In this document: one piece after another, positions 22,499 through 62,878 of the stretch
How positions within the stretch are numbered: the first letter of the stretch is position 1
How the letters are laid out: every line of letters starts with the position of its first letter
Assembly: GCA_020055645.1 (NCBI GenBank)
Contig: CM034548.1
Span: 37,750,296-37,814,295 of the forward strand
DNA from: Tomocerus qinae
Lineage: Eukaryota; Arthropoda; Collembola; Entomobryomorpha; Tomoceridae
Direction of reading: 5' to 3'
Length of the DNA: 64,000 nt
Made by a program: the position numbers and the translations under genes
The notes under the pieces: generated by a model
Told to the model about the DNA's origin: nothing
What the model saw: the letters and a program-made list of their open reading frames with translations, nothing else
Databases searched by the model: none

Positions 22499-23558
22499 TT
22501 AGTTCTCTTGAGGACCAACCCCACTATTACTGGCGACAGTGTTAACCAGTTCCACCACATTCAAAATGTGGTTAAACAATTCCTCTAAATTCCTAAGCAT
22601 ATCATAAGCCAATACTGGATTATCATCATAACAGGTCCTCAATAAATTAATATGTAGAAGGCCGGGTGCATTCAGATGGACATCTTCAGGGCCCAATGCT
22701 TGGTTGACATCTTCAATGTTGGCATGAAGGAAGGCATGTTGGTGGAGATGTTCAAGTAACATTTGTTCGTCATCGGGCTGAATTTGTTGGTTGTCGGGCT
22801 GAATTTGTTGGTTGTCGGGCTGAATTTGTTCGTTATCGGGCTGAATTTGTTGGTCGTCAGGCTGAATTTGTTGGTCGTCAGGCTGAATTTGTTGGTCATC
22901 GGTTTCAAGCTCCATTTGTTGATTGGCAGGGGAGGCTGTGTCGCTTTTGAAGAAGTTATACCACGATGGAGGGTAACGTGGCTCATAAGAAGGTGCTTTG
23001 CGGATCGCCTTCAGGATATCTCCGTGTCTAGAACTTGGTTTTATTGGAGTGTCACTTCTCAATCTTGTTACGACTCGATTCGGAGAAGCCTATAATATGG
23101 TAAATATATAAATAGGAATGACAATAAATGAAAATGTCTGAATTAAGATGAAAATTCCTACTATGTAAACTGAAAAAATGATCTAATAGAAAGATAAAGT
23201 ATTTTTACCTCAATGAGGGAAGGTTCGTGGTCCAACCAGCGAGTTACCACATTTGCAGTGATCGTTCGGGCATCCAAAAATTTCACCACTCCATTTATCC
23301 AACTGTCACTTCCAGGAGCTCCATATCCCAAAGCTTGGTTTTCAAGAGTCTGCTTTGTGAAGAATTGTATCTTCCGTCTTCGAAGCGCAGACAAATTGGG
23401 ACTGAAGAAATTAATTATTATCACAATTAGTAATTTATTTCTAAAATAGGCTGCAGGCAATCAATGCTCAATAAAAGTTGTAAAATATAAAATAAGACAA
23501 CTTACTTTGATTTCCGAACTCGTTTTCCCTCGCCGATTCTGTTTGATACTGGGCTCAT
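22499..23558 (-). CDS. 278-residue protein with heptapeptide repeat, function unknown
   Basis: The three-exon model on the minus strand is 23,558-23,506, 23,401-23,209 and 23,089-22,499, joined at AAA/GTAAGT, TTCAG/T, GAG/GTAAAA and ATAG/G with phases that fit. The start is ATG at 23,558 and the stop TAA at 22,499. The N-terminus (residues 1-35) is basic with clusters such as GKRVRKS and LRRRK, suggesting nuclear import or nucleic-acid binding. The middle holds WINGVVKFLDARTITANVV. Residues about 146-187 are six copies of D-D/N-Q/E-Q-I-Q-P. The C-terminal third is Leu-rich and probably helical, with no membrane span. I do not recognise the family. The exon is open upstream of the ATG to the acceptor at 23,599, so the N-terminus may extend if the upstream exons are coding. 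Confidence 0.7.
22775..22900. repeat. 21-bp coding tandem repeat
   Basis: About six copies of a 21-bp unit (on the plus strand, AATTTGTTGGTTGTCGGGCTG with variants), all in phase with the minus-strand gene at 22,499-23,558. They encode DDQQIQP-type heptapeptides. Copies differ mainly at third positions and at D/N and Q/E. A unit length divisible by three keeps the frame whatever the copy number, so length polymorphism is likely. Confidence 0.9.
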
Positions 23559-27147: not shown

Positions 27148-27152
27148 TGAAG

Positions 27153-27552
27153 TATTAGAAGAATGCACAGTGACATAAATAGTTTGTGCATGATGTCTTA
27201 TTATTATTGTTATGAAACCTTTAGCTCGGTATTGTCGAGGTTAAAGGACATTGTATCATACATTCTTATAATACTAGTACTCCTTATAAATATCATAAAA
27301 GTTTTATTGCTGTGTTTACTAAATTCTGTTCTAGTTTCTATTTGTCAATGTACATACCTTACCCACTTTTCATGTTACACTCAACCTTCAATATTTGTAT
27401 AAATACTGCTGCTCTATGCTTGAATAAATCACTTGTTAACTTTAACCAGTCAACTTCTCTTCTCTTCACTGTTGGTACTAAAACCATCAGATTGCATACT
27501 CACTCATATGGACCAGGCGAACTAGCCCTTCGAAGAGGCAATTCATGCTTCA
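27153..27552 (+). repeat. 5' LTR, 400 bp
   Basis: Begins TATTAGAAGAATGC and ends AATTCATGCTTCA. It matches the 3' LTR at 34,044-34,443 at a constant offset of 6,891 bp, and I found no difference in the segments I compared by eye. The left terminus is TA rather than the usual TG, and the right terminus is CA. It contains a TATA-like box and a poly(A) signal, and an 80-codon open frame (see the 3' copy). Confidence 0.95.
27398..27428 (+). promoter_or_regulatory. LTR TATA-like box and poly(A) signal
   Basis: TATAAATA lies at 27,398-27,405 and AATAAA at 27,423-27,428, inside the last third of the LTR. The spacing suggests transcription starting near 27,430, in the 5' LTR, and the same motifs in the 3' LTR (AATAAA at 34,314-34,319) ending it. 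This is a reading of motifs only. Confidence 0.5.
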
Positions 27553-27975
27553 CGTTATACCAGCACAAGTTCTACCAAGCTGAGGAACCTGGCCGACTAC
27601 AATTTTTATGAGGAGCTTTTCTTTCATGTTTTAATTTTTTGTCCATTCAACTTTAGAATTTTGATACTGCGCTGTCTGGATTAAATTTTTCACCTTAGTG
27701 AAAAATTCTGCAATCACCAAGTAGGACTGGAGATACGGAGGATACTCATCAATAGCTGCTGTGGGCCGCCAGAATTTGATCGGAGGAGTCCCCCTGAATA
27801 AACTCGTCACTAGCCGCACCTGTCTGAAGGAAGTAGAAGTTGCCTTGCAGACCTGACTGGAGTTTTTGGAAATCGTCACAGTTGTATCCTTAGAGCCTGT
27901 GGAACGGATTTCATTGGACTTATATCTCGTCTACTTTTTGCCGAATATTTTTGATTGCAGCAGGACCATTCCATT
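27553..27975 (+). other. Leader with possible primer-binding site
   Basis: Sequence between the 5' LTR and gag. The first bases, GTTATACCAGCAC from 27,554, resemble the complement of the anticodon-stem part of initiator tRNA-Met with a gap of about three bases. Copia-type elements can prime from an internal half of that tRNA. The match is imperfect, so the assignment is tentative. No other feature was seen in the leader. Confidence 0.35.
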
Positions 27976-29142
27976 ATGTCGAAAGGAATTAAAATTGATT
28001 GCGGGAATATCGACAAACTCACCGGGACGAGTGATTTTCCGCTATGGAAAATCAATGTGAAGAACGTCTTCACCGCCGCCGGCATTTACAAGGTAGTAAA
28101 TGGAATGGAACCCAGACACACCACTGATGCAGATAAACAGGACGAATGGGACAAAAAGGACAGCGCAGGAATGGCTGTCATACTACAAACCGTGGACAAG
28201 AGCGTCGTATGCCACATCTATTCGGCACTGACAAGTAATGTCATGTGGACTATTCTGGAACAGACCTTTGGACGATCCACCGTCTGGTCACAGGAAGTAC
28301 TGATCCAGAAATTTTATTCGATGCGTCTTGGAAATAAGAGCGCCGTGGAAATGATCAACGAATTACAGACCATCTCAGGTCAATTGATAACCCTTGGATA
28401 CACAGCAATTGACGAGCGAGCAGTGATCTCGCGGGCCACTTTCGAGCTACAAGGACCTAGTTACGATTCATTCGTAGCTACTTGGGATTGCTTACCATCT
28501 GCTCAGAAGAATTTGGGGAATATGATACAAATGCTCAACAAACATGAAGATAGACAGACAACTTGGCGCCAGAAGGAGGAGTCCACGTCCTCTGATCGAG
28601 CATTTTGGCAGAGAAGAGATGACCACCCCAACACGCCCCGACCAGGACAACAGAGATGGAATGATGTGGAACCAAGGTCCAACCCTAATTGGAAGCCGTC
28701 TAATGGAAGACAACAGAAGAAGGGTAACAGGTCAGGCAGTTGCTTTGACTGTGGTGAAGAAGGACATCATAGAGGAAGTCCGGACTGTAAAAATCCCAAA
28801 CCGAGGGATGACGACCGCCAACCGAATAATAATCATCAAAGGAACAACAATCAGAGGTCCAACAACCGTCCTCGGAATAATGGCAACCGTCAGAAGAACC
28901 GGAGCAACCACAGCAACCAGAAGAAGAATGACAAGCAGCCTGAAAATAAGCCAAGGAGTGCACCGTTTGAGGACGAGGATGCAGCCTTTGGAGTCATCTT
29001 GAAAGCTTCCCAGGATGACTACTCGTCGTTTCGAGTCGCCACAAACGACGATTGGTACTGTGACAGTGGAACGAATGTCCACCTTTGCGGCGACAAGAGT
29101 TGGTTTTCTTCATATACGGATTACAACCCCCGAGAAGTGTGA
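27976..29142 (+). CDS. gag: Copia Gag with zinc knuckle and start of protease
   Basis: Reads 388 codons from ATG at 27,976, the first ATG in this frame. Residues about 10-200 match the copia-type Gag (UBN2-like) pattern: FPLWKINV near the start, then VWSQEVLIQKFYSMR and ISGQLITLGY. A Gln/Asn/Arg-rich basic region and a zinc knuckle at 28,741-28,788 follow. The knuckle spacing is C-x2-C-x4-H-x6-C, two residues longer than the usual CCHC between His and last Cys. The frame then enters the aspartic protease, with the DSG catalytic triad at 29,062-29,070 (residue 363), and stops at 29,142. The rest of the protease continues in the -1 frame from about 29,130, overlapping the pol open frame. The change falls at a run of five C. 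It may be a lesion, an assembly error, or a recoding site; splitting the protease argues against normal recoding. Confidence 0.9.
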   Translation: MSKGIKIDCGNIDKLTGTSDFPLWKINVKNVFTAAGIYKVVNGMEPRHTTDADKQDEWDKKDSAGMAVILQTVDKSVVCHIYSALTSNVMWTILEQTFGRSTVWSQEVLIQKFYSMRLGNKSAVEMINELQTISGQLITLGYTAIDERAVISRATFELQGPSYDSFVATWDCLPSAQKNLGNMIQMLNKHEDRQTTWRQKEESTSSDRAFWQRRDDHPNTPRPGQQRWNDVEPRSNPNWKPSNGRQQKKGNRSGSCFDCGEEGHHRGSPDCKNPKPRDDDRQPNNNHQRNNNQRSNNRPRNNGNRQKNRSNHSNQKKNDKQPENKPRSAPFEDEDAAFGVILKASQDDYSSFRVATNDDWYCDSGTNVHLCGDKSWFSSYTDYNPREV

Positions 29143-31931
29143 CCGTAGCGTCCAAACAATCCGTGATATGCCCAGGAGGAGGGACGGTGACACTAGAAGC
29201 TTTCATCTGTGGAACATGGAAGGTCATCCAATTACATGATGTAATTTACCTGCCTGGAAGTACGAACTTATTTTGCCACAGCAAAATATTGCGTAAGGGG
29301 TACACTGTGAATTCAACTCAGAAAGGAACAATTTTTAAGACCAGCCAGAACAAACGAAGCATCGAGGCTACGTTTGATGACGACGGACTACAGAGGATGG
29401 TATTCCGGAGATTGCCACGTGATAGAGCCTTCTCAGCCGTTTCTATGGGAGAAAGATGGCACGAGCGCCTTGGACATACTAACTTTGAGTTTTTGAGAAA
29501 CTCAGTTACGAAGAATGCAATTAAGCTGGGAACGAATGGCAAATTGGAGAAGAAATTTAACTGCGATGTTTGCGTGAGAGCTAAGGCTCCGCTACATCCC
29601 TACCCATCCCAACCGGAAAGGAACTACCCCGTCGGAGAACTGATACACACGGATCTAGTGTATGCTGGAGGACTAAGTAACCAAGGAAATAAATATTATT
29701 TACTCGTGAAGGAAAATACTTCTAATTTTAGGCTGGCGTATTTTCAAAGAACGAAGGATGCCTCCACAACGACCAAGAATATGAAAGATGCGGTAAATTG
29801 GTTTACCAATAAAACCGGAGTTCCAGTGAAGATCGTCAAATCGGACCACGGTACGGAGTACGTCAACAGACTATGGAAAGACTTCGTGTCAGAAAAAGGG
29901 ATTACACACGAATTGACGCCCGTCGGATGTTCTCAATCGAGTGGAAAGGTCGAACGAGATGTGAGAACTGTAAGGAACATGGGTCGAGCGATGCTTCTGG
30001 AAGCAAATCTCAAGGAGGGATTCTGGCAGGATGCGATCGGCACTGCAGTCTTCTTGCTGAACAGGTTACTCAGCACTACGAATGGAACGAAGACGCCCCT
30101 TGAAATGATCTCCGGACAAGTCCCCAATCTTGGAAGAATAAGGATATTTGGCAGCCCTGGCAGAGCAAGAGTGCTCACCCCCTCTGGAAAGATGGCTGAC
30201 CGAACACGAGCAGGGATACTCGTTGGCTATGTACCTGCATCGAGAGAATATAAACTATGGGACAAGACAACTAAACAATACTTCACCTCTCGACACGTTG
30301 TGTTCAGAGAGGACTGGATACCGTCAAGTTCTCTACCGGAGGTAGTAGCAGAACAGGAAGACGAAGACCGCAGGCCTTTGGGTTCCGCAGAGGTCGAGGA
30401 ACTAGATGACGAATACGATGATGATGCCGGAGCTGAAGCAGCAGCTCGACAAGATGACGCAGCGGCAGCCCAAGGAGAAGCAGCCGCAGGTGACGCAGCA
30501 GAGGACAACGATGAAGATAATTTCTGGAGAGACTGGAACCTCAGCGAGGAGGAGGACTCCGAGACGACAGCTGATCCAGTGATAGAGGCCATTGAAGGCA
30601 CTCCAGAACCTCCTGAACAACCAAAGACCGTTGTTAAACGCGTCAGGAAACCTAAAGGAGTCACTCAGCCTACAAGGGAGATGACCAGACATACTCGAGG
30701 GGTACCACCTCCGTGGTACCAAGCGTCACACATTGTCAGCAAGAATGACCGGATCATACCAATTCCCAAGAGTTACGAAGAAGCTATGACCAGCTGGGAC
30801 AAGCTGGACTGGTTGGACGCCATGCAACGGGAGATGGAGAGTCACCAGATGATAGGAACTTGGGAACTAGTTCTATGCCCCAAGAACGGGAAGATACTTA
30901 AATGCGGTTGGATTTATAAAGTCAAGAACAACCCGGATGGAACACCGCTTTTCAAAGCCAGATTGGTTGTTAAAGGATACGCACAACGCTGGGGGATCGA
31001 CTTCTTCGACACCTTCTCATCAGTCATCAGAATGGAAACTTGGAGACTCATCTTTGCGATTGCCGCAATTTTCGGATGGTCAATTTTTGGATCTGATGTT
31101 AAAACAGCGTTCGTCAACAGTGAGCTAATGGAGCTCATCTACATGGAACAACCACCCGGATTCGTCACCGGAGGAGGATACGTATGCAGACTAAAGAAGA
31201 GTCTGTACGGGCTCAAACAGAGTCCCAGAAATTGGCATCGTCTCATGACGGAGAAACTACTGGAACTGGGATTCGTCCAATCCCAGTACGACAACTGCTT
31301 ATTCATCTATCAGGACTCCAAACATACAGTATATATGGGACTGTATGTGGACGACTTATTGCTGACTGGAAACAAACCGGAGTTCATGGAAGATATTTTG
31401 AAGAAACTAGGAAAGCAGTTCACCATGACGACGACCAGGAGGGTTACCAAATTTCTAGGAGTGGAGGTCAATGTCACGTCAAGAGGGATCCACCTGCACC
31501 AGGAGCAGTACATATTGGACTTGATGACCCGATTTGGTATGGAGCAGTGCAAAGGAGCACAGATACCAATGAGCCCCTCACATAAATTGGATCCATGCAT
31601 CGATAAGGAGGGTAACTTCCCAAATCACGACCCTCGCCTTCCATATCAACAATTAGTTGGTGCGCTATTGTTTATTAGCCGATGCACCCGACCCGACATC
31701 GCGTTTGCTGTGGGCAAACTGTCCCGCTATTTCACCGTGTACGAAGACAAACATATGAAGGCAGCCAAGGATGTACTGAGGTACCTGGCGCAGACAAGAA
31801 CACGTGGAATTTGGTACGGAAAGGACAAGGAGATGCGGATGGAAGGATTTTCTGATGCAGATTATGCCGGCGATCACGTACAGAGCAAATCGACGTCTGG
31901 CATTTTATATACTATAAATGGCTCACCCTGA
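29085..31931 (+). CDS. pol: Copia Pol: protease remainder, integrase, RT, part of RNase H
   Basis: An open frame of 948 codons. After the protease remainder comes the integrase zinc region (HERLGH at 29,460; C-x2-C at 29,562). The integrase core follows, with catalytic Asp at 29,652, Asp at 29,844 and Glu at 29,952, giving exact D-x35-E spacing for the last two. An Ala/Asp/Glu-rich linker (about 30,340-30,600) leads to reverse transcriptase: DVKTAFVNSEL, SLYGLKQSPRNWH and the active-site YVDD at 31,344-31,355. RNase H begins with SDADYAG near 31,853. The frame ends at TGA 31,929, inside RNase H, and homology resumes in the -1 frame. Residues acting in integration and reverse transcription are all present. 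The first ATG of this frame is not the natural start, because Pol is expected to be made fused to Gag. Confidence 0.92.
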   Translation: MRRQELVFFIYGLQPPRSVTVASKQSVICPGGGTVTLEAFICGTWKVIQLHDVIYLPGSTNLFCHSKILRKGYTVNSTQKGTIFKTSQNKRSIEATFDDDGLQRMVFRRLPRDRAFSAVSMGERWHERLGHTNFEFLRNSVTKNAIKLGTNGKLEKKFNCDVCVRAKAPLHPYPSQPERNYPVGELIHTDLVYAGGLSNQGNKYYLLVKENTSNFRLAYFQRTKDASTTTKNMKDAVNWFTNKTGVPVKIVKSDHGTEYVNRLWKDFVSEKGITHELTPVGCSQSSGKVERDVRTVRNMGRAMLLEANLKEGFWQDAIGTAVFLLNRLLSTTNGTKTPLEMISGQVPNLGRIRIFGSPGRARVLTPSGKMADRTRAGILVGYVPASREYKLWDKTTKQYFTSRHVVFREDWIPSSSLPEVVAEQEDEDRRPLGSAEVEELDDEYDDDAGAEAAARQDDAAAAQGEAAAGDAAEDNDEDNFWRDWNLSEEEDSETTADPVIEAIEGTPEPPEQPKTVVKRVRKPKGVTQPTREMTRHTRGVPPPWYQASHIVSKNDRIIPIPKSYEEAMTSWDKLDWLDAMQREMESHQMIGTWELVLCPKNGKILKCGWIYKVKNNPDGTPLFKARLVVKGYAQRWGIDFFDTFSSVIRMETWRLIFAIAAIFGWSIFGSDVKTAFVNSELMELIYMEQPPGFVTGGGYVCRLKKSLYGLKQSPRNWHRLMTEKLLELGFVQSQYDNCLFIYQDSKHTVYMGLYVDDLLLTGNKPEFMEDILKKLGKQFTMTTTRRVTKFLGVEVNVTSRGIHLHQEQYILDLMTRFGMEQCKGAQIPMSPSHKLDPCIDKEGNFPNHDPRLPYQQLVGALLFISRCTRPDIAFAVGKLSRYFTVYEDKHMKAAKDVLRYLAQTRTRGIWYGKDKEMRMEGFSDADYAGDHVQSKSTSGILYTINGSP

Positions 31932-32287
31932 CTTGGACCAGCAAGCGTCAAACTGTGATTGCACAGTCAACAACGGAATCAGAGTACGTTGCCCTAGCGA
32001 CCGCCAGCAAGGAGGGAATCTGGATAAGAAACTTACTATGTGAACTAAAACTTAAACCCTGGGATACACCGTTCACCATCCACATGGACAGCCAGAGTGC
32101 ACAACGGTTGGCACTCAATCCGGAATTCCACACAAGGACGAAGCATATGTCCGTCCGCTGGCATTACATCCGATTACTGGTAGAAACAAATCAAGTAAAA
32201 ATCCAGTACACACCCACTGAAGAATTGGTCGCTGACGCGCTGACGAAGCCACTACCGAAGATCAAGTTCGATGAAAAAGTGAAGCAG
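31932..32287 (+). CDS. pol: RNase H C-terminal half, in frame with envelope region
   Basis: Homology to copia RNase H resumes just after the stop at 31,931, in the -1 frame: TTESEYVALATASKEG, IHMDSQSA and the terminal ADALTKPL near 32,234-32,257, which normally marks the end of copia Pol. No stop codon follows. The frame runs directly into the envelope-like region, so the two are translationally continuous in this copy. The junction with the preceding frame lies at CACCCTGA (31,924-31,931). Confidence 0.88.
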
Positions 32288-33274
32288 ATGGACCTCAGGT
32301 TCAAGGAGGACCTGGAACTGGCGAACAATCAGTTCAAGGAGGACATCAAAAGAAGATCAGGGACCACGACACAAACGAAGAAAGTCACCTTTAACTGTCT
32401 ATCAGCACTTTTGCTGATAGGACAACTCATGTTCGCTTTATGCGACAAACTACCTACTGGAAGCCCAGTAGTTTGGCGAAAAATGGACCAGCCCGCAGTG
32501 ATAGGTTTCACTAGCGTCAACCTGAAGATTAATCTGGTATCGCCCTGTAAACTACTACCACTGGAAGGACTTCCGGCTGTGACTTCTATCAAACTGAAGA
32601 GGCAATGCGAGGACCAGTACAACAAACTTTTTCTGGATGAGCTGGAAAAAGTCTGCCCTCAGAGAGATGTGTCGGACCGACAGAAGAGAGCCATATTTGC
32701 CATTATTGGCATATTACTCATTTCAGCAGTCGCAAGCGCAGGAGTAGGCATGGGAACCTACGCCGTACATCAAACGGATCAACTAGAGGTCACGGAAGCT
32801 GAAATCGAGAGAACACTGGACGACCTGGAAGCTAAGGCTAAGATTAATAGTGAAGATATACGGATTCTTCAACAAGAGGTTAAGAAGCTTGCCTTAACCG
32901 TCAACAAACTCATCATGGACGTGAACAGCCTCACAGAAAAATCAATCGAGATGCAGTACCTCGTGTCTTACATCGTAGCAAGACTTGTCGTTGGCAGAGG
33001 AGTCATTAGCGAGATGAAAAGAAACTGGAAGAAAAAGGCTATGGACGACAGCTTTTTCGAATTCATCAACTTCACCCTGCCTTGTGAGCCTGATTGTCCA
33101 CTGGAATATGGAGAGTCTAAAGATTGTTACCTAGACTCTAAGAAGCAGTCACTCTACATGAAATTTACAGTACCCATTGTAAATGACAACCTAACAGTCG
33201 TGGAAGCAGACCCGTTCACCCTGATGGTCAAGGAAAAAGGAAAGACTTGCAGAGTCTCATATTTTGGACCCTGA
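32288..33274 (+). CDS. env: Envelope-like glycoprotein, N-terminal part
   Basis: The first in-frame ATG after RNase H is at 32,288; about 328 codons follow to TGA at 33,274. In order: a charged segment; a hydrophobic leader at about 32,390-32,440 that could act as a late signal sequence; a short first subunit of about 80 residues with several Cys; a furin-type RQKR at 32,678-32,689; a hydrophobic Ala/Gly/Ile-rich segment at once after it (32,690-32,760), typical of a fusion peptide; a heptad-like coiled coil (about 32,786-32,990); and a Cys-containing ectodomain with NFT and NLT sites. A short N-terminal subunit with a long membrane-anchored one is the plan of baculovirus/errantivirus F-like proteins. 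That is structural resemblance; family membership is inference. Predicted role: virion surface glycoprotein for membrane fusion. Expression could be by splicing or by cleavage of a Pol-Env fusion. Confidence 0.82.
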   Translation: MDLRFKEDLELANNQFKEDIKRRSGTTTQTKKVTFNCLSALLLIGQLMFALCDKLPTGSPVVWRKMDQPAVIGFTSVNLKINLVSPCKLLPLEGLPAVTSIKLKRQCEDQYNKLFLDELEKVCPQRDVSDRQKRAIFAIIGILLISAVASAGVGMGTYAVHQTDQLEVTEAEIERTLDDLEAKAKINSEDIRILQQEVKKLALTVNKLIMDVNSLTEKSIEMQYLVSYIVARLVVGRGVISEMKRNWKKKAMDDSFFEFINFTLPCEPDCPLEYGESKDCYLDSKKQSLYMKFTVPIVNDNLTVVEADPFTLMVKEKGKTCRVSYFGP

Positions 33275-34005
33275 ACGCGATGGTCTCCATCACTGAGGAC
33301 TGCGTGTATGCTGTTGACATGGGAACCGCACATCGGAAAAGGATTTTATACGCCCCTGTTCGAAATTGTCAGAAGCAGGAAAGCCTGACAGATGTCAACA
33401 AAGTATACCGAATTACGGACTGCAAAATAAGCATATTAGGAGACGAGACGGAATTTGTTCAAGTGAAAGCTTATAACAATAAGTACTACATTTACTGCCC
33501 AGGACTACAGTACAAACTCGGAGAAACACGTGTGGTAGATTGCCCGAGTAAAGTCTTCACTCTTCCGCTCACAGCGACCTTTTCGCTGAACAACGTCACC
33601 TACCAAGGAAAAATGCTGAATCTCGTTTACAACGAGAAGGAGGACCCACTCTACGTGGAGAAGCTGGAATGGCATCTGACGCCTCAGGTCAATTGGGACG
33701 AGTTAAACAAAACGTTCCCTGTGTTGGACACTCTGGATCCCAATCACTGGAATCAACACCAGGACGGACACCTGATTAGTATCTATACGATACTACTTAC
33801 CAGCTTGGCTATAATTGGAGCCGTGTATACCTACAGATGCATTAAGAAATGTAAATGCATTAAGAAGAACAGAAGGCCGCATAAGAAGTCTCGGAAGACT
33901 GGAAAGAGCAGCAGTTCACCGCCCCAGGAAGTGCAACTGGATGAACTTCACGAATTGAAGGAATCAGCACATTGCAGCTCTAGCGAGGAGACTATCAATG
34001 GATGA
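33247..34005 (+). CDS. env: Envelope-like glycoprotein, C-terminal part
   Basis: The -1 frame takes over from the stop at 33,274 at CCCTGA and stays open to TGA at 34,003. It holds a Cys-rich ectodomain (about ten Cys), NVT and NKT glycosylation sites, and a hydrophobic span at about 33,775-33,830 (YTILLTSLAIIGAVYTY) followed by a basic, Cys-containing juxtamembrane motif. A tail of about 50 residues, basic then acidic and Ser-rich, ends the protein. Together with the preceding piece this gives a type I membrane glycoprotein of roughly 570 residues. The break separates two halves of one ectodomain, so it is a lesion or assembly error unless recoding occurs. The frame ends 38 bp before the 3' LTR. 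Confidence 0.8.
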   Translation: MQSLIFWTLNAMVSITEDCVYAVDMGTAHRKRILYAPVRNCQKQESLTDVNKVYRITDCKISILGDETEFVQVKAYNNKYYIYCPGLQYKLGETRVVDCPSKVFTLPLTATFSLNNVTYQGKMLNLVYNEKEDPLYVEKLEWHLTPQVNWDELNKTFPVLDTLDPNHWNQHQDGHLISIYTILLTSLAIIGAVYTYRCIKKCKCIKKNRRPHKKSRKTGKSSSSPPQEVQLDELHELKESAHCSSSEETING

Positions 34006-34034
34006 TTACTACATGCGAGCGTCAAGGATTTCAT

Positions 34035-34043
34035 AAAGGAGGA
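34035..34043 (+). promoter_or_regulatory. Polypurine tract
   Basis: AAAGGAGGA lies immediately before the 3' LTR. This is the expected place and composition for the plus-strand DNA primer. Confidence 0.75.
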
Positions 34044-34443
34044 TATTAGAAGAATGCACAGTGACATAAATAGTTTGTGCATGATGTCTTATTATTATTG
34101 TTATGAAACCTTTAGCTCGGTATTGTCGAGGTTAAAGGACATTGTATCATACATTCTTATAATACTAGTACTCCTTATAAATATCATAAAAGTTTTATTG
34201 CTGTGTTTACTAAATTCTGTTCTAGTTTCTATTTGTCAATGTACATACCTTACCCACTTTTCATGTTACACTCAACCTTCAATATTTGTATAAATACTGC
34301 TGCTCTATGCTTGAATAAATCACTTGTTAACTTTAACCAGTCAACTTCTCTTCTCTTCACTGTTGGTACTAAAACCATCAGATTGCATACTCACTCATAT
34401 GGACCAGGCGAACTAGCCCTTCGAAGAGGCAATTCATGCTTCA
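34044..34443 (+). repeat. 3' LTR, 400 bp
   Basis: Same length and apparently same sequence as the 5' LTR at 27,153-27,552. It is followed directly by the TGAAG target duplication. No lineage-specific change was noticed between the two, which implies insertion recent on the substitution clock. Confidence 0.95.
34054..34293 (+). CDS. Small hydrophobic open frame inside the LTR
   Basis: An ATG 10 bp into the LTR opens 79 codons (MHSDINSLCMMSYY at the start) with a long stretch rich in Ile, Leu and Val (SYILIILVLLINIIKVLLL) able to span a membrane. It stops at the TATA-like box. The same frame exists in the 5' LTR at 27,163-27,402. In the 3' LTR it begins 49 bp after the envelope stop, so it could be translated from a genomic or spliced RNA. 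It may equally be a chance consequence of AT-rich sequence. No family recognised. Confidence 0.25.
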   Translation: MHSDINSLCMMSYYYCYETFSSVLSRLKDIVSYILIILVLLINIIKVLLLCLLNSVLVSICQCTYLTHFSCYTQPSIFV

Positions 34444-34448
34444 TGAAG

Positions 34449-52434: not shown

Positions 52435-55314
52435 GTACAGGAATCTTCGAAAACATAACAAGTGACATGAAGGTCGATGTAGACAGCTTCTATGCTGACG
52501 AGGAAATATTCACTGCAGCTAGGATTTCCCTGTCGCTTTTCGCAATCATGGCTCTTCTGGTTTACAAGTAAGTTGCAGCTTGTTTGCGCTAAGCTTGTCT
52601 CTATCTTCTTTGTACGTAGAGCACCAATACACACTGTTGTATGACAAAACCTTTCTCTTTACATAAGTCAAGCATGTAAATTAGTAATCTGAAGTGAGCG
52701 ATGTATGATTAACATTCTTATGAGTTTATTTGTTTATGTCGCATTCTACTTTCATCTGTATTATTTGAATAGTCCCTTAAAGGAAAGACAGATTGAAAAA
52801 CGATTATTCGCTATATATTGATGTACCTACATTGCCTGATATCGTTTAGTATATTCATATTCCATGATGAACTTTGCATGAATTTCTTTCTTTTTGGAGT
52901 TTGTATTTGTAAGTCATCAATTGCGACAACTCTTTTCATACGACAGGATATGCATAAGGAAAGTTATTAGTAGGTATGGACTTACAGATTCGTACAGACG
53001 GAATTGATACACTAACCATAGTTAGACTATAGAATAGCAGCTATCAGAAAAATCAACCTACGATTCCAAAACTAGTTGAAACCTGAATGTTTAATAGAAA
53101 ATTTAGCCAGTCCACAATGTTTTATTATTGCTTAAATGGTATATATACATAGAGTATGCTCGGTTTTGCGTAAGATAAGTATTTAATTGGCAAGTTCAAT
53201 TGGCAATCATGAGACTCGTAGTATTTTTGATGCTTAACTTTCATCCTTTGTCTCAAAACTCGTTAGATTGCCAATGCCAAAGCTGAGTTACATTCATAAT
53301 AATTTGTCACTGAGATTTCTCAGATGTTAATCTCCCAAAAGCTGAGCAATGGATTCACTTTTAAACGATAGTAAATTCTCCACTTATTGAATACGCTAGA
53401 ATTTTGAAATACATACTGCGAACGCTGTACACTTTGAAAGATGTTTCCTATTATTTTCAACAGATGAGCTTAGATAATTATTCGCAACGAATAAACTCAG
53501 ATTTGTCGTAAATCATCTAATAAAGCTAAGACCATGGTTAAGTAATTGACCACGTATTCCTACTAAAAGTATGTATAGGCACTAAGTACTAATGTAAAAA
53601 TAGTTGACTCTTTGCACTTCTGTATCAAACTTGATAACAAATTAGTTACATATTGATTCATATTGGATTTTTCATATTCATAATTTACAATTTTAAGGTA
53701 TCTCACCAGAAACCACAACTATTGGTCCAGTAGAGGGGTACCGGGTCCACGACCTTTGCCATTTTTTGGTACATACTTGCACCAGTTTTTCGTTCCCTTT
53801 CAGGAGAGCGAATTGAGAAGATACCAGAAGTACGGAAAGATTTACGGGTAAGGTTTACCAGTAGAATTATTATCTAGAAACCCACCTACTACTTAAAACT
53901 ACGATCATTGATAAAATTATTTGATAGTTGAAGTAAATGAAGTTGAATATTTAGCATATTTTGTAACTATTGTTTCGTTTGATACTTCATAAGAGATATA
54001 CATATATTAATTTTCAGGATTTACGACGGAACAGAGCCGGGGTTAATTGTCGGTGAACCGAAATTGATAAAACAGATAATGTGTGGTTCTACGGCACTGG
54101 AAGTTTTCACAAACCGCCGAGCCGTGAAAACGACCCATCCGGTAATGAGTAAGTTTCTATCTAGTCTGGAAGACAACGAATGGAAGCGGGTGCGCTCTAT
54201 CACGACACCAAATTTCAGTTCGGGGAAATTGAAGACTATCTTTCCCATAATGCAAAATGCGTCTGATAAAATGTTGGATACTTTGGGGAGCCTGGCTGAC
54301 AGGAAGGAAGAGGTAGACGCAAAACTGCTCTACGGGAACTACACGATGGATGTAATAGCCTACAGTGCCTTTGCAACAAGACCGGATGATGTTTTCGTCC
54401 GTCAGGCCAGTCTTCTTTTCACATTTCCCTTCTGGAGAAAGTTCCTGGACTACGTAGTACCTATGTGGTTGCTAGAATTGGTGAGATTTACTGTCCTTCC
54501 TCCAGATCCAATGGACTTCTTCCGCAAAGTAACCATTTCTGCCATAAGACGACGCAGGGCTGAGAATGTTGAGTATGCCGACTTCCTACAGCTACTGATG
54601 AATGCTGAAGATGACAGCATCACTGGCACAGATCAAGACAAAAAGCCCAGATCCAAGGTTTTGTCCGAAGATGAAATTCTTTCCCAGTCTGTCTTATTCT
54701 TCTCCGTTGGATTTGAAACATCTTCTCAGTTACTGGCCTACTGCTCCTATTGCTTTGCCTTGAATCAAGAAGCTCAGGAGAAAGCATACCAAGAAATCGT
54801 CGAGGCAGTAAAGAAAAATGGAAATCGAGTTGATCATGATTTGCTACAGACATTGGATTATTTGACTGCAGCCATTGACGAAAGTTTAAGAATTTACAAT
54901 CCCGTACTGAGGATGGAGAGACGGGCCAGTGCGGATTTCGTACTGGAGGATACTGGAATCACCGTGCCCAAGGGAATGGTAGTTGGAATCCCTGTTTGGG
55001 CCATGCACCATACCGACGAGTATTTCAAAAACCCAGATGAATTCAACCCCGATCGCTTCATGCCTAAAAATCGACCCAATATCGTTCAATCTACTTACCT
55101 GCCCTTTGGAGAAGGGCCTCGCAATTGCATCGGCATGCGATTTGCTCTTTTGGAGAGCAAATTGGCCCTCGTTGAAATTCTTCTAAAATTTCGCTTTGTT
55201 GTATCACCTGGAACAAAAATCCCATTGGAATTCTTCCCAACAGGCCGGCCATTGTTAGGCCCAAAAGCCATTATGATTGGTGTTGAACGCAGAATCCCAA
55301 CTGAGAACGAATGA
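52435..55314 (+). CDS. Cytochrome P450, CYP3-clan-like, 515 residues
   Basis: Microsomal heme mono-oxygenase for lipophilic substrates. Exons: 52,435-52,567 (coding from ATG 52,467, after an acceptor CTTTTTTTCAG, with an in-frame stop before the ATG), 53,698-53,847 and 54,018-55,314; junctions AA/GTAAGT, TTAAG/G, GG/GTAAGG, TTTCAG/G fit in phase. Total 515 residues, normal for the family. N-terminal anchor at residues 19-33, then Pro-rich hinge PGPRPLPFFG (49-58). C-helix W139-x3-R143; I-helix SVGFETSS with E317-T318, where the usual Ala of A-G-x-E-T is Val; K-helix E372-S-L-R375; FNPDRF; heme loop FGEGPRNCIG with thiolate ligand Cys454. YGKIYG and the overall pattern suggest the CYP3 clan (CYP6/CYP9/CYP3A side), but the exact family needs comparison. 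All key residues are present, so it is probably functional. An upstream untranslated exon is implied by the acceptor. Confidence 0.92.
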
Positions 55315-61349: not shown

Positions 61350-62222
61350 ATTTTGGGGCAAAACCCCTTGAGGCGGTTAAATGAGTTTCAAAACCTCTTG
61401 AGACAGTTACATTTGTGGAAAACCTCTTGAGAAGGTTAAATGCGTGGAAAAATCACTTTGGACGGTTAAATGTGGAGCAAAATCCCTTTGGACGGTTATG
61501 TGTGGCAAAATCCCTTTGGACGGTTAAATGTACGACAAAACTTTTTGAGACGGTTAAATGTGTTTCAAAACCTCTTGAAACGGTTAAATGTGTAGCACAA
61601 CCTCGTGGAACGGTTAAATGTGTAGCACAACCTCGTGGAACGGTTAAATGTGTCAAACTCCCTTGGGACGGTTAAATGTTTGGCAAACCCCTTTGGGACG
61701 GTTAAATGTGTGGCAAACCCCTTTGGGACGGTTAAATGTGTGGTAAAGGTTCTTGACACCGTTAATAAATGTGTGGCAAAACCTCTTGAGACAGTTAAAT
61801 TTGGGGCAAAACCTCTTGAGACAGTTAAATGTGTGGCAAAACCTCTTGAGACGGTTATGTGTGGCAATGTGTTTCAAAACCTCTTGAAACGGTTAAATGT
61901 GTAGCACAACCTCGTGGAACGGTTAAATGTGTAGCACAACCTCGTGGAACGGTTAAATGTGTCAAACTCCCTTGGGACGGTTAAATGTTTGGCAAACCCC
62001 TTTGGGACGGTTAAATGTGTGGCAAACCCCTTTGGGACGGTTAAATGTGTGGTAAAGGTTCTTGACACCGTTAATAAATGTGTGGCAAAACCTCTTGAGA
62101 CGGTTAAATTTGGGGCAAAACCTCTTGAGACAGTTAAATGTGTGGCAAAACCTCTGGGGACGGTTAAACGTGTGGCAAAACCTCTTGAGACGGTTAAATG
62201 TGTGGCAAACCCAATTGAGACG
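61350..62222. repeat. 30-bp minisatellite with 309-bp second-order repeat
   Basis: Roughly 28 tandem copies of a 30-bp unit, CGGTTAAATGTGTGGCAAAA plus CCTCTTGAGA with variants (CCCCTTTGGGA, CCTCGTGGAA). About ten units were duplicated as a block: 61,561-61,850 repeats at 61,870-62,159 with an offset of exactly 309 bp and few differences. Because the unit length is divisible by three and poor in stops, open frames of 60-137 codons appear on both strands. These are by-products, not genes. Confidence 0.92.
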
Positions 62223-62878
62223 GTTGGAGTGCAGCTAAGAAAGTCGCAAACACTTTTAGTTCCACGACCCCGCCATAATCCACGCAACGAAGTAGCAACG
62301 CTGCCTATATAGTTTATAGTTCGTGTTAGAAGACGATATCATAGAAGAATAAAACCGCTGATTGCATTTTTAGTTAAAACAGAGTGGAAAACAAAGCTGA
62401 AAATCTTCACTCTTGGATCATTGAAAGATTTCAATAAATCAGAAAATGAAGAACTTCATTTTTAAGTCGCAATAACATCGTTAAACTCAAAAGATAATTT
62501 TCAATGGTAAAAATTTTAACTAGCTTCAATTTAACTTTGTTAAACCTGTACTATAAAACTAAGCCTGACAAATAAAAGCTTCAGATGATTCTACTCAATC
62601 GCTAATCTCCTGACTCCTGCTTGCTACGCTTAACGGGAAGAAAACCCATCACAATTTTTGCCTCTTTTCTGACCTAACCTAATAAAAAAATAAACAGCCA
62701 ACCATTTATTATTTTTATTAGGTCAGAAAAGAGGCAAAAATTGTTATGGATTAAAAGAAAAAGGGATTATTTTGCTGAAAACGGAAGTTTTTGTTTCGTA
62801 GTATTGCAACCGGTAAAATATAGAGGATTAGTTTGTAGGACTTTTGACTTTGCGACCCCCCTTAACTGAACTCCAACC
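62222..62878. mobile_element. Third inverted-repeat element nested in the minisatellite
   Basis: Ends GGTTGGAGTGCAGCTAAG at 62,222 and, in inverse, CTTAACTGAACTCCAACC at 62,861-62,878; the similarity continues through GTCGCAAA. Units of the 30-bp minisatellite lie on both outer sides (to 62,222 and again 62,876-62,945), so this element of about 657 bp entered the array. Its centre holds a near-perfect hairpin, arms 62,645-62,676 and 62,718-62,749 (CAATTTTTGCCTCTTTTCTG and complement). No coding capacity. Probably a non-autonomous DNA transposon. Confidence 0.65.

Follow-up and report, generated by a model that had tools for sequence, protein, structure and literature searches.

Envelope genes in long terminal repeat retroelements

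Long terminal repeat (LTR) retroelements that captured an envelope (env) gene are already known as a kind. Env capture is known in gypsy- and BEL-type elements of animals, and in plant copia elements it is known in the form of an unproven envelope-like gene. Baculovirus-related env genes have been described in insect elements (PMC6563192), and in the BEL/Pao group the hookworm Atlas virus already provides an example of a Gag-Pol-Env polyprotein (PMC9094657). For Pseudoviridae, the International Committee on Taxonomy of Viruses (ICTV) summary names a putative envelope gene only for the plant genus Sirevirus; it describes pseudovirids as lacking an extracellular phase, and its table allows possibly enveloped virions (PMC8515867). 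In SIRE1, a Sirevirus regarded as atypical, the env-like protein is produced through stop-codon suppression (PMC2829016). In the open-licence literature searched for env-bearing copia elements, no paper was found that describes a fusion-type env in animal members of the group, and one may exist in print elsewhere. The present analysis concerns such an element in the springtail Tomocerus qinae. The window, which is the whole 64,000-nt stretch of T. qinae DNA analysed and to which all coordinates refer, contains it at positions 27148-34448. It is quite probable that this is a recent Ty1/copia insertion in which an F-like class I env follows RNase H in frame, likely forms the last part of a Gag-Pol-Env polyprotein, and likely serves passage from cell to cell. 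The feature is real, and its single-frame layout is unusual.

Anatomy of the Tomocerus qinae element

The element at 27148-34448 is a Ty1/copia LTR retrotransposon, as defined by the order of integrase (IN) before reverse transcriptase (RT), an RT of the RVT_2 type, LTRs and a short target-site duplication (TSD). The two 400-bp LTRs do not differ at any position, and the 5-bp duplication TGAAG is present at both ends. A Pfam search of the open reading frames (ORFs) of the element found Retrotran_gag_2 (1e-16), rve (7.2e-12) and RVT_2 (3.3e-62). The rve match (residues 184-281) lies upstream of the RVT_2 match (residues 592-830) in a single open frame. An earlier note, made from the sequence alone, had recognized a Ty1/copia element with the order IN-RT-RNase H, and the domain matches, LTRs and TSD bear this out. 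An errantivirus (Metaviridae) identity is ruled out by the RVT_2-type RT and by the position of IN before RT. Gypsy and BEL are excluded by profile and domain order and not by a tree, as the trees contain RVT_2-type RTs only. The parts of the element are as follows.

27148..27152, + strand: left copy of the TSD, TGAAG (5 bp, from sequence)
27153..27552, + strand: 5' LTR, 400 bp, starting with TA and ending with CA, identical to the 3' LTR
27976..29139, + strand: copia-type Gag (PF14223) and the beginning of the protease (DSG at 29062-29070); frame break within 29064-29139
29064..31928, + strand: remainder of the protease, integrase (rve, SH3-like), reverse transcriptase (RVT_2; YVDD at 31344-31355) and start of RNase H; frame break within 31856-31928
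31856..32248, + strand: C-terminal part of RNase H, with the final motif ADALTK at 32231-32248
32249..32383, + strand: linker, free of stops and in the same frame as RNase H and env (the window copy is L001)
32384..32443, + strand: hydrophobic core of env, predicted from hydropathy to be signal-peptide-like
32444..32689, + strand: F2-like N-terminal part, with Cys codons at 32546, 32606 and 32654 and RQKR (32678-32689) at its end
32690..32755, + strand: fusion-peptide-like hydrophobic segment
32768..32941, + strand: HR-A-like coiled coil (heptad-like stretch)
32942..33271, + strand: first part of the F1-like Cys-containing ectodomain; frame break within 33187-33271
33187..34002, + strand: second part of the F1-like Cys-rich ectodomain, membrane span (33769-33834) and basic tail
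34035..34043, + strand: polypurine tract AAAGGAGGA, directly before the 3' LTR
34044..34443, + strand: 3' LTR, 400 bp
34444..34448, + strand: right copy of the TSD, TGAAG

Compared with its flanks, the interior of the element has more G+C and a greater excess of A over T. A six-frame scan of the window with the env profile found matches at this element only, in two pieces, and an Rfam scan of the window gave no match.

The window copy itself is damaged. Three frameshifts, within 29064-29139, 31856-31928 and 33187-33271, interrupt its protease, RNase H and env, respectively. Its open frames are 27955-29139, 29064-31928, 31856-33271 and 33187-34002. The breaks may be due to mutation or to assembly error. 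Elsewhere in the genome, at least one nearly identical copy has an unbroken frame across RNase H and env. Despite the broken frames, the identical LTRs of the window copy speak for a recent insertion. The frameshifts, together with the frame shared by pol and env that is described below, go beyond the earlier note.

A predicted F-like glycoprotein

All the env-like features listed in the earlier note were located: the hydrophobic leader and the RQKR site, the fusion-peptide-like segment with a coiled coil behind it, the Cys-rich part, glycosylation sites and the membrane span. The env region of the window copy has four N-x-S/T motifs. When 14 env proteins were aligned, two of them from databases and the others from this genome, 12 Cys proved invariant, three in the F2-like part and nine in the F1-like part, as did an Arg at the cleavage site. 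The hydrophobic segment is preceded by KR in 13 of the aligned proteins and by RLPR in the remaining one. By hydropathy, the N-terminal hydrophobic core is signal-peptide-like with a putative cleavage. The layout expected of a class I F-like glycoprotein is present, with a putatively cleaved basic site leading to a fusion-peptide-like segment and then to a coiled coil.

The predicted fold agrees with this layout. Two AlphaFold models of env were obtained, with low to moderate confidence, and in each of three lists of their structural matches in the PDB all 50 listed rows were paramyxo-/pneumovirus F. A PDB sequence search with the single window piece gave nothing useful. Only four of the 14 env members matched PF00523 at E <=1, with a best value of 2.9e-4. 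Env is thus predicted to be a class I, F-like membrane-fusion glycoprotein. The F-like assignment of the earlier note is supported by the two structure predictions, and weakly by sequence.

Env-bearing copies in this genome and in other springtails

The fusion of RNase H and env is widespread in the genome of the window. A search of the 334-Mb genome with the RNase H-env piece gave at least 102 matches, with fragments counted; this is a lower bound, as 96 of 127 candidates were scored. The RT of the window element gave 81 matches that merged into 68 loci, and at 64 of these an env match lies no more than 4 kb downstream. In this count, 82 of the 102 env matches were entered, and the remaining 20 are further fragments at or beside the same loci. 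Using the window's own RT as query biases the 68 loci toward its kin, and a generic RVT_2 profile served as a check. The profile gave 80 genome matches (88 candidates, all scored) at nearly the same loci and, when the lists were compared by eye, one new locus at C1:66628064. No env profile match at E 0.01 was found in at least 4.5 kb downstream of the four env-less RT loci or of C1:66628064. The RTs of these loci are incomplete, divided between frames or interrupted by stops. In other words, at the search sensitivity used, no intact env-less copia element was found in the genome. The env groups in the genome are as distant as 28% identity to P0001.

The same fusion is present outside this genome. 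A protein search with the env alignment returned 17 proteins, including two from the springtails Folsomia candida and Allacma fusca, and P0006 has RT and env within one protein. Among 120 listed relatives of the pol piece, five (P0020, P0025, P0026, P0028 and P0030) have env profile matches. The pol-env fusion hosts include Folsomia candida (P0020), Allacma fusca (P0025) and Orchesella dallaii (P0030), and P0030 covers nearly the whole env profile. Database proteins of three springtails thus carry the same env fusion. P0028, a copia polyprotein with a divergent env start, is sister to one half of the env-bearing clade with moderate support (87/79), and its host could indicate how far the lineage reaches. 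An IMG/VR scan with the RNase H-env piece gave 18 pattern-matched stretches, none of which was confirmed, and phage records gave no match.

A reading frame shared by pol and env

At 40 of 46 loci, RNase H and env lie in one frame with no stop between them; counted by distinct copies, this holds for 38 of 43. The linkers were counted at the 46 of 50 loci that had both motifs (L042, L043, L048 and L050 did not). Merging the same-place pairs L011/L012, L014/L015 and L013/L030 left 43 distinct copies, the window copy among them. Of the five exceptions, all single copies, four have lost the common frame and the other contains a stop. The distance from RNase H to env takes ten values between 153 and 237 nt, and linker sequences are barely similar between families. 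Because the frame is nevertheless kept in 38 of 43 copies, the length and sequence of the linker have changed without loss of frame. That in-frame distances are multiples of three is a consequence of the shared frame and provides no independent evidence.

Twelve of the 102 listed RNase H-env matches lie within open frames of 1,780-1,995 codons, which are long enough to run from Gag to Env; in the window copy, the stretch between the beginning of Gag and the stop of env (27976-34005) amounts to ~2,010 codons. For most copies, the shared-frame count rules out a separate env gene read in a different frame. One Gag-Pol-Env polyprotein is the likely product of such a layout.

Selection, descent and recent activity

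The ratio of nonsynonymous to synonymous divergence (dN/dS) was estimated for 18 env sequences in 19 pairs with at least 55% identity. Synonymous divergence (dS) was saturated in ten pairs and finite in nine, some of which share members. In eight of the nine, dN/dS was 0.08-0.19. The env pair L035/L041 gave 1.76, on seven changes, and the pair L042/L043 has a dS of 2.4, near saturation. These values show purifying selection on env.

Evidence on descent comes from RT trees. There were 146 sequences long enough for them, and 57 and 45 hand-picked rows were used, with the window row in both and three decayed copies in the smaller set. In the 45-row tree, all 16 env-bearing rows fall inside one clade with support of 97/97 among RVT_2-type RTs. 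This clade has 20 rows, the other four being L051-L053 and P0059. The earlier note had treated an RT placed outside copia as fatal to its proposal; the RT is of the copia type, and it groups with the RTs of other copia elements that bear env in a well-defined, supported clade. RT and env distances are correlated over 14 elements (Mantel r 0.71, p 0.0001). This pattern fits one env capture followed by mostly joint descent with RT.

Among ten sampled copies, the LTR pairs are identical in seven, 99.8% identical in one and 99.5% identical in one. Several families have therefore been active recently. In the flanks L056-L075, the sequence after the 5' LTR is specific to groups: it is TGGTAGCAGAGC-like in L035 and L037, CGTTATCAGCACG in L021 and L023, and CGTACTCAACACG in L008 and L009. 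Different primer sites may thus be used; in Pseudoviridae the primer is usually the initiator Met tRNA. L021 (C3:48.93 Mb) and L023 (C1:27.26 Mb), on different contigs, have a common 5-bp target duplication, GATTT, which may be due to chance, target preference or segment duplication.

Proposed mechanism and alternative explanations

How would such an env be made and used? In the proposed mechanism, env would be produced as the final part of a Gag-Pol-Env polyprotein, and an internal signal peptide would route the env part to the secretory pathway. Cleavage by signal peptidase and by a furin-like protease could then give F2- and F1-like parts. The resulting spike, on budded particles, would fuse with the membrane of a neighbouring cell, perhaps of the germline. 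The env would have been taken once, before the clade diversified, from a virus with an F-type protein. The element may be an endogenous-retrovirus-like agent, as the earlier note proposed. A bolder version envisages a springtail retrovirus-like genus within Pseudoviridae. Here an F-type gene captured from a virus, either a negative-strand RNA virus or one resembling baculoviruses, would have been welded to pol. The whole virion would derive from one Gag-Pol-Env with an internal signal peptide, the lineage would have been infectious since early springtail history, and endogenous enveloped viruses would make up almost the whole copia complement of such a genome. This version is held tentatively, as slightly more doubtful than probable.

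Several observations weigh against the proposal. Among the structure matches listed in BFVD below E 0.001 are, besides F proteins, herpesvirus proteins of abalone and frog, the spike of a torovirus and a walleye retrovirus Env. An exclusive clade of env-bearing RT rows is rejected (p-AU 2.7e-7) because L051-L053 and P0059 nest inside it. In L051-L053, from this genome, the RT is broken by stops or frame changes and no env was detected. P0059, a copia protein from a metagenome, stops shortly after RNase H, and its last stretch is hydrophobic and resembles a signal peptide. The clade rows without env are read as decay or loss, with P0059 ending as if its env were cut off. The nearest neighbour by RT differs from that by env in eight of 14 elements, and there may have been limited exchange of RT and env between elements. 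In L006, the tenth of the copies sampled for LTRs, the flanking repeats are 76% alike over 976 bp and are perhaps not its LTRs. Lastly, L002, which belongs to the window's family, has an acceptor-like site just ahead of the hydrophobic core.

This last site bears on a rather unlikely alternative, that Env is made from a spliced or other subgenomic RNA, as in retroviruses and errantiviruses, and that the frame common to RNase H and env is inherited and neutral. Splicing is the usual route to Env in retroviruses, which counts for this alternative. The linkers were scanned in 13 elements with a crude acceptor search; L042 and L043 lacked a motif, leaving 11 linkers. In six of them (L006, L021, L031, L035, L036 and L038) a Met lies no more than 14 residues ahead of the hydrophobic core. 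However, acceptor-like sites were found in only three of the 11: L002 has its site just ahead of the core, L038 inside it and L035 beyond it. L002 has no Met close ahead of the core. The retention of an open frame across linkers so different in length and sequence also argues against neutrality. Another alternative, improbable on present evidence, is that the F-like protein is kept for a role other than entry, such as intracellular particle trafficking or a block to superinfection, and that the element stays in the cell. It draws support from the account of copia elements as having no extracellular phase (PMC8515867), and purifying selection is silent on which function is selected. However, the parts specific to entry are retained: the basic cleavage site in all 14 aligned proteins, the hydrophobic segment after it, the coiled coil and the membrane anchor. 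The possibility that env is a chance reading, or a host gene captured in the window copy only, is extremely improbable. In its favour, the two window pieces that contain env match no Pfam family at cut-off. Chance is ruled out by the homologues and by a dN/dS far below 1 in eight of the nine pairs with finite dS. A single captured host gene, the outcome that the earlier note had named as one that would undo its proposal, is ruled out by the number and divergence of the genome matches, the env behind nearly every RT locus and the fused proteins of three springtails.

Other features of the window

The window also contains a neighbouring host gene at 53983-55311 on the + strand, a single open frame of 443 codons that matches cytochrome P450 (PF00067, 2.4e-76). 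A 21-bp tandem repeat of 6.8 copies at 22761-22902 lies within a minus-strand open frame of 196 codons (22499-23089) that has no Pfam match. At 61357-62225 there is a satellite-like array with a 30-bp unit and 28.7 copies, which contains a 309-bp repeat that is 99% alike.

Comparison with known systems

With the paramyxo-/pneumovirus F proteins (PF00523), the springtail env has in common the F2-F1 layout, the basic cleavage site, the hydrophobic N-terminus of F1, the coiled coil and the C-terminal anchor, and these proteins were the top listed PDB structural matches of its models. It differs in being ~10% identical to them and in being encoded by a retroelement. No separate attachment protein was seen, although no search was aimed at one. 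The TelKA clade is a retrovirus-like lineage of rotifers and is not copia. Errantiviruses have an RT of the Ty3/gypsy type, RT before IN and env as a separate gene, unlike the springtail element. For Errantivirus (gypsy, ZAM; Metaviridae), the similarities are an arthropod LTR element, an Env related to baculovirus F, and RxxR followed by a fusion peptide (PMC6563192). The description of the TelKA LTR retrotransposons of bdelloid rotifers gives an env-like ORF of ~600 aa that is closest to the class I F of paramyxoviruses, the type of protein predicted for the springtail env, but describes it as a third ORF (PMC5408684).

Sirevirus (SIRE1), within Pseudoviridae, is similar in that its members are copia elements with an envelope-like gene downstream of pol. 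However, it is restricted to plants, its env sequence is highly variable and its env function is unproven (PMC8515867, PMC2829016). The springtail elements also differ in mostly having no stop between pol and env. Their env suggests, from its sequence, a departure from the rule that pseudovirids have no extracellular phase. If the proposal is correct, that summary needs an exception, and animals have a third LTR retrotransposon family in which the step from transposon to retrovirus-like agent was taken. The copies with identical LTRs suggest recent activity, so that transfer from soma to germline would be observable in springtails.

The Atlas virus of Ancylostoma ceylanicum (Belpaoviridae) is likewise an LTR retroelement with identical LTRs and one Gag-Pol-Env polyprotein without a stop codon or intron (PMC9094657). 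It differs in having a BEL/Pao RT, a phlebovirus-like class II Env and a nematode host, in contrast to the copia RT and class I F-like env of the springtail element. The frame shared by pol and env in springtails offers a testable model for making Env without splicing, similar to that of Atlas virus except that the protein is of class I.

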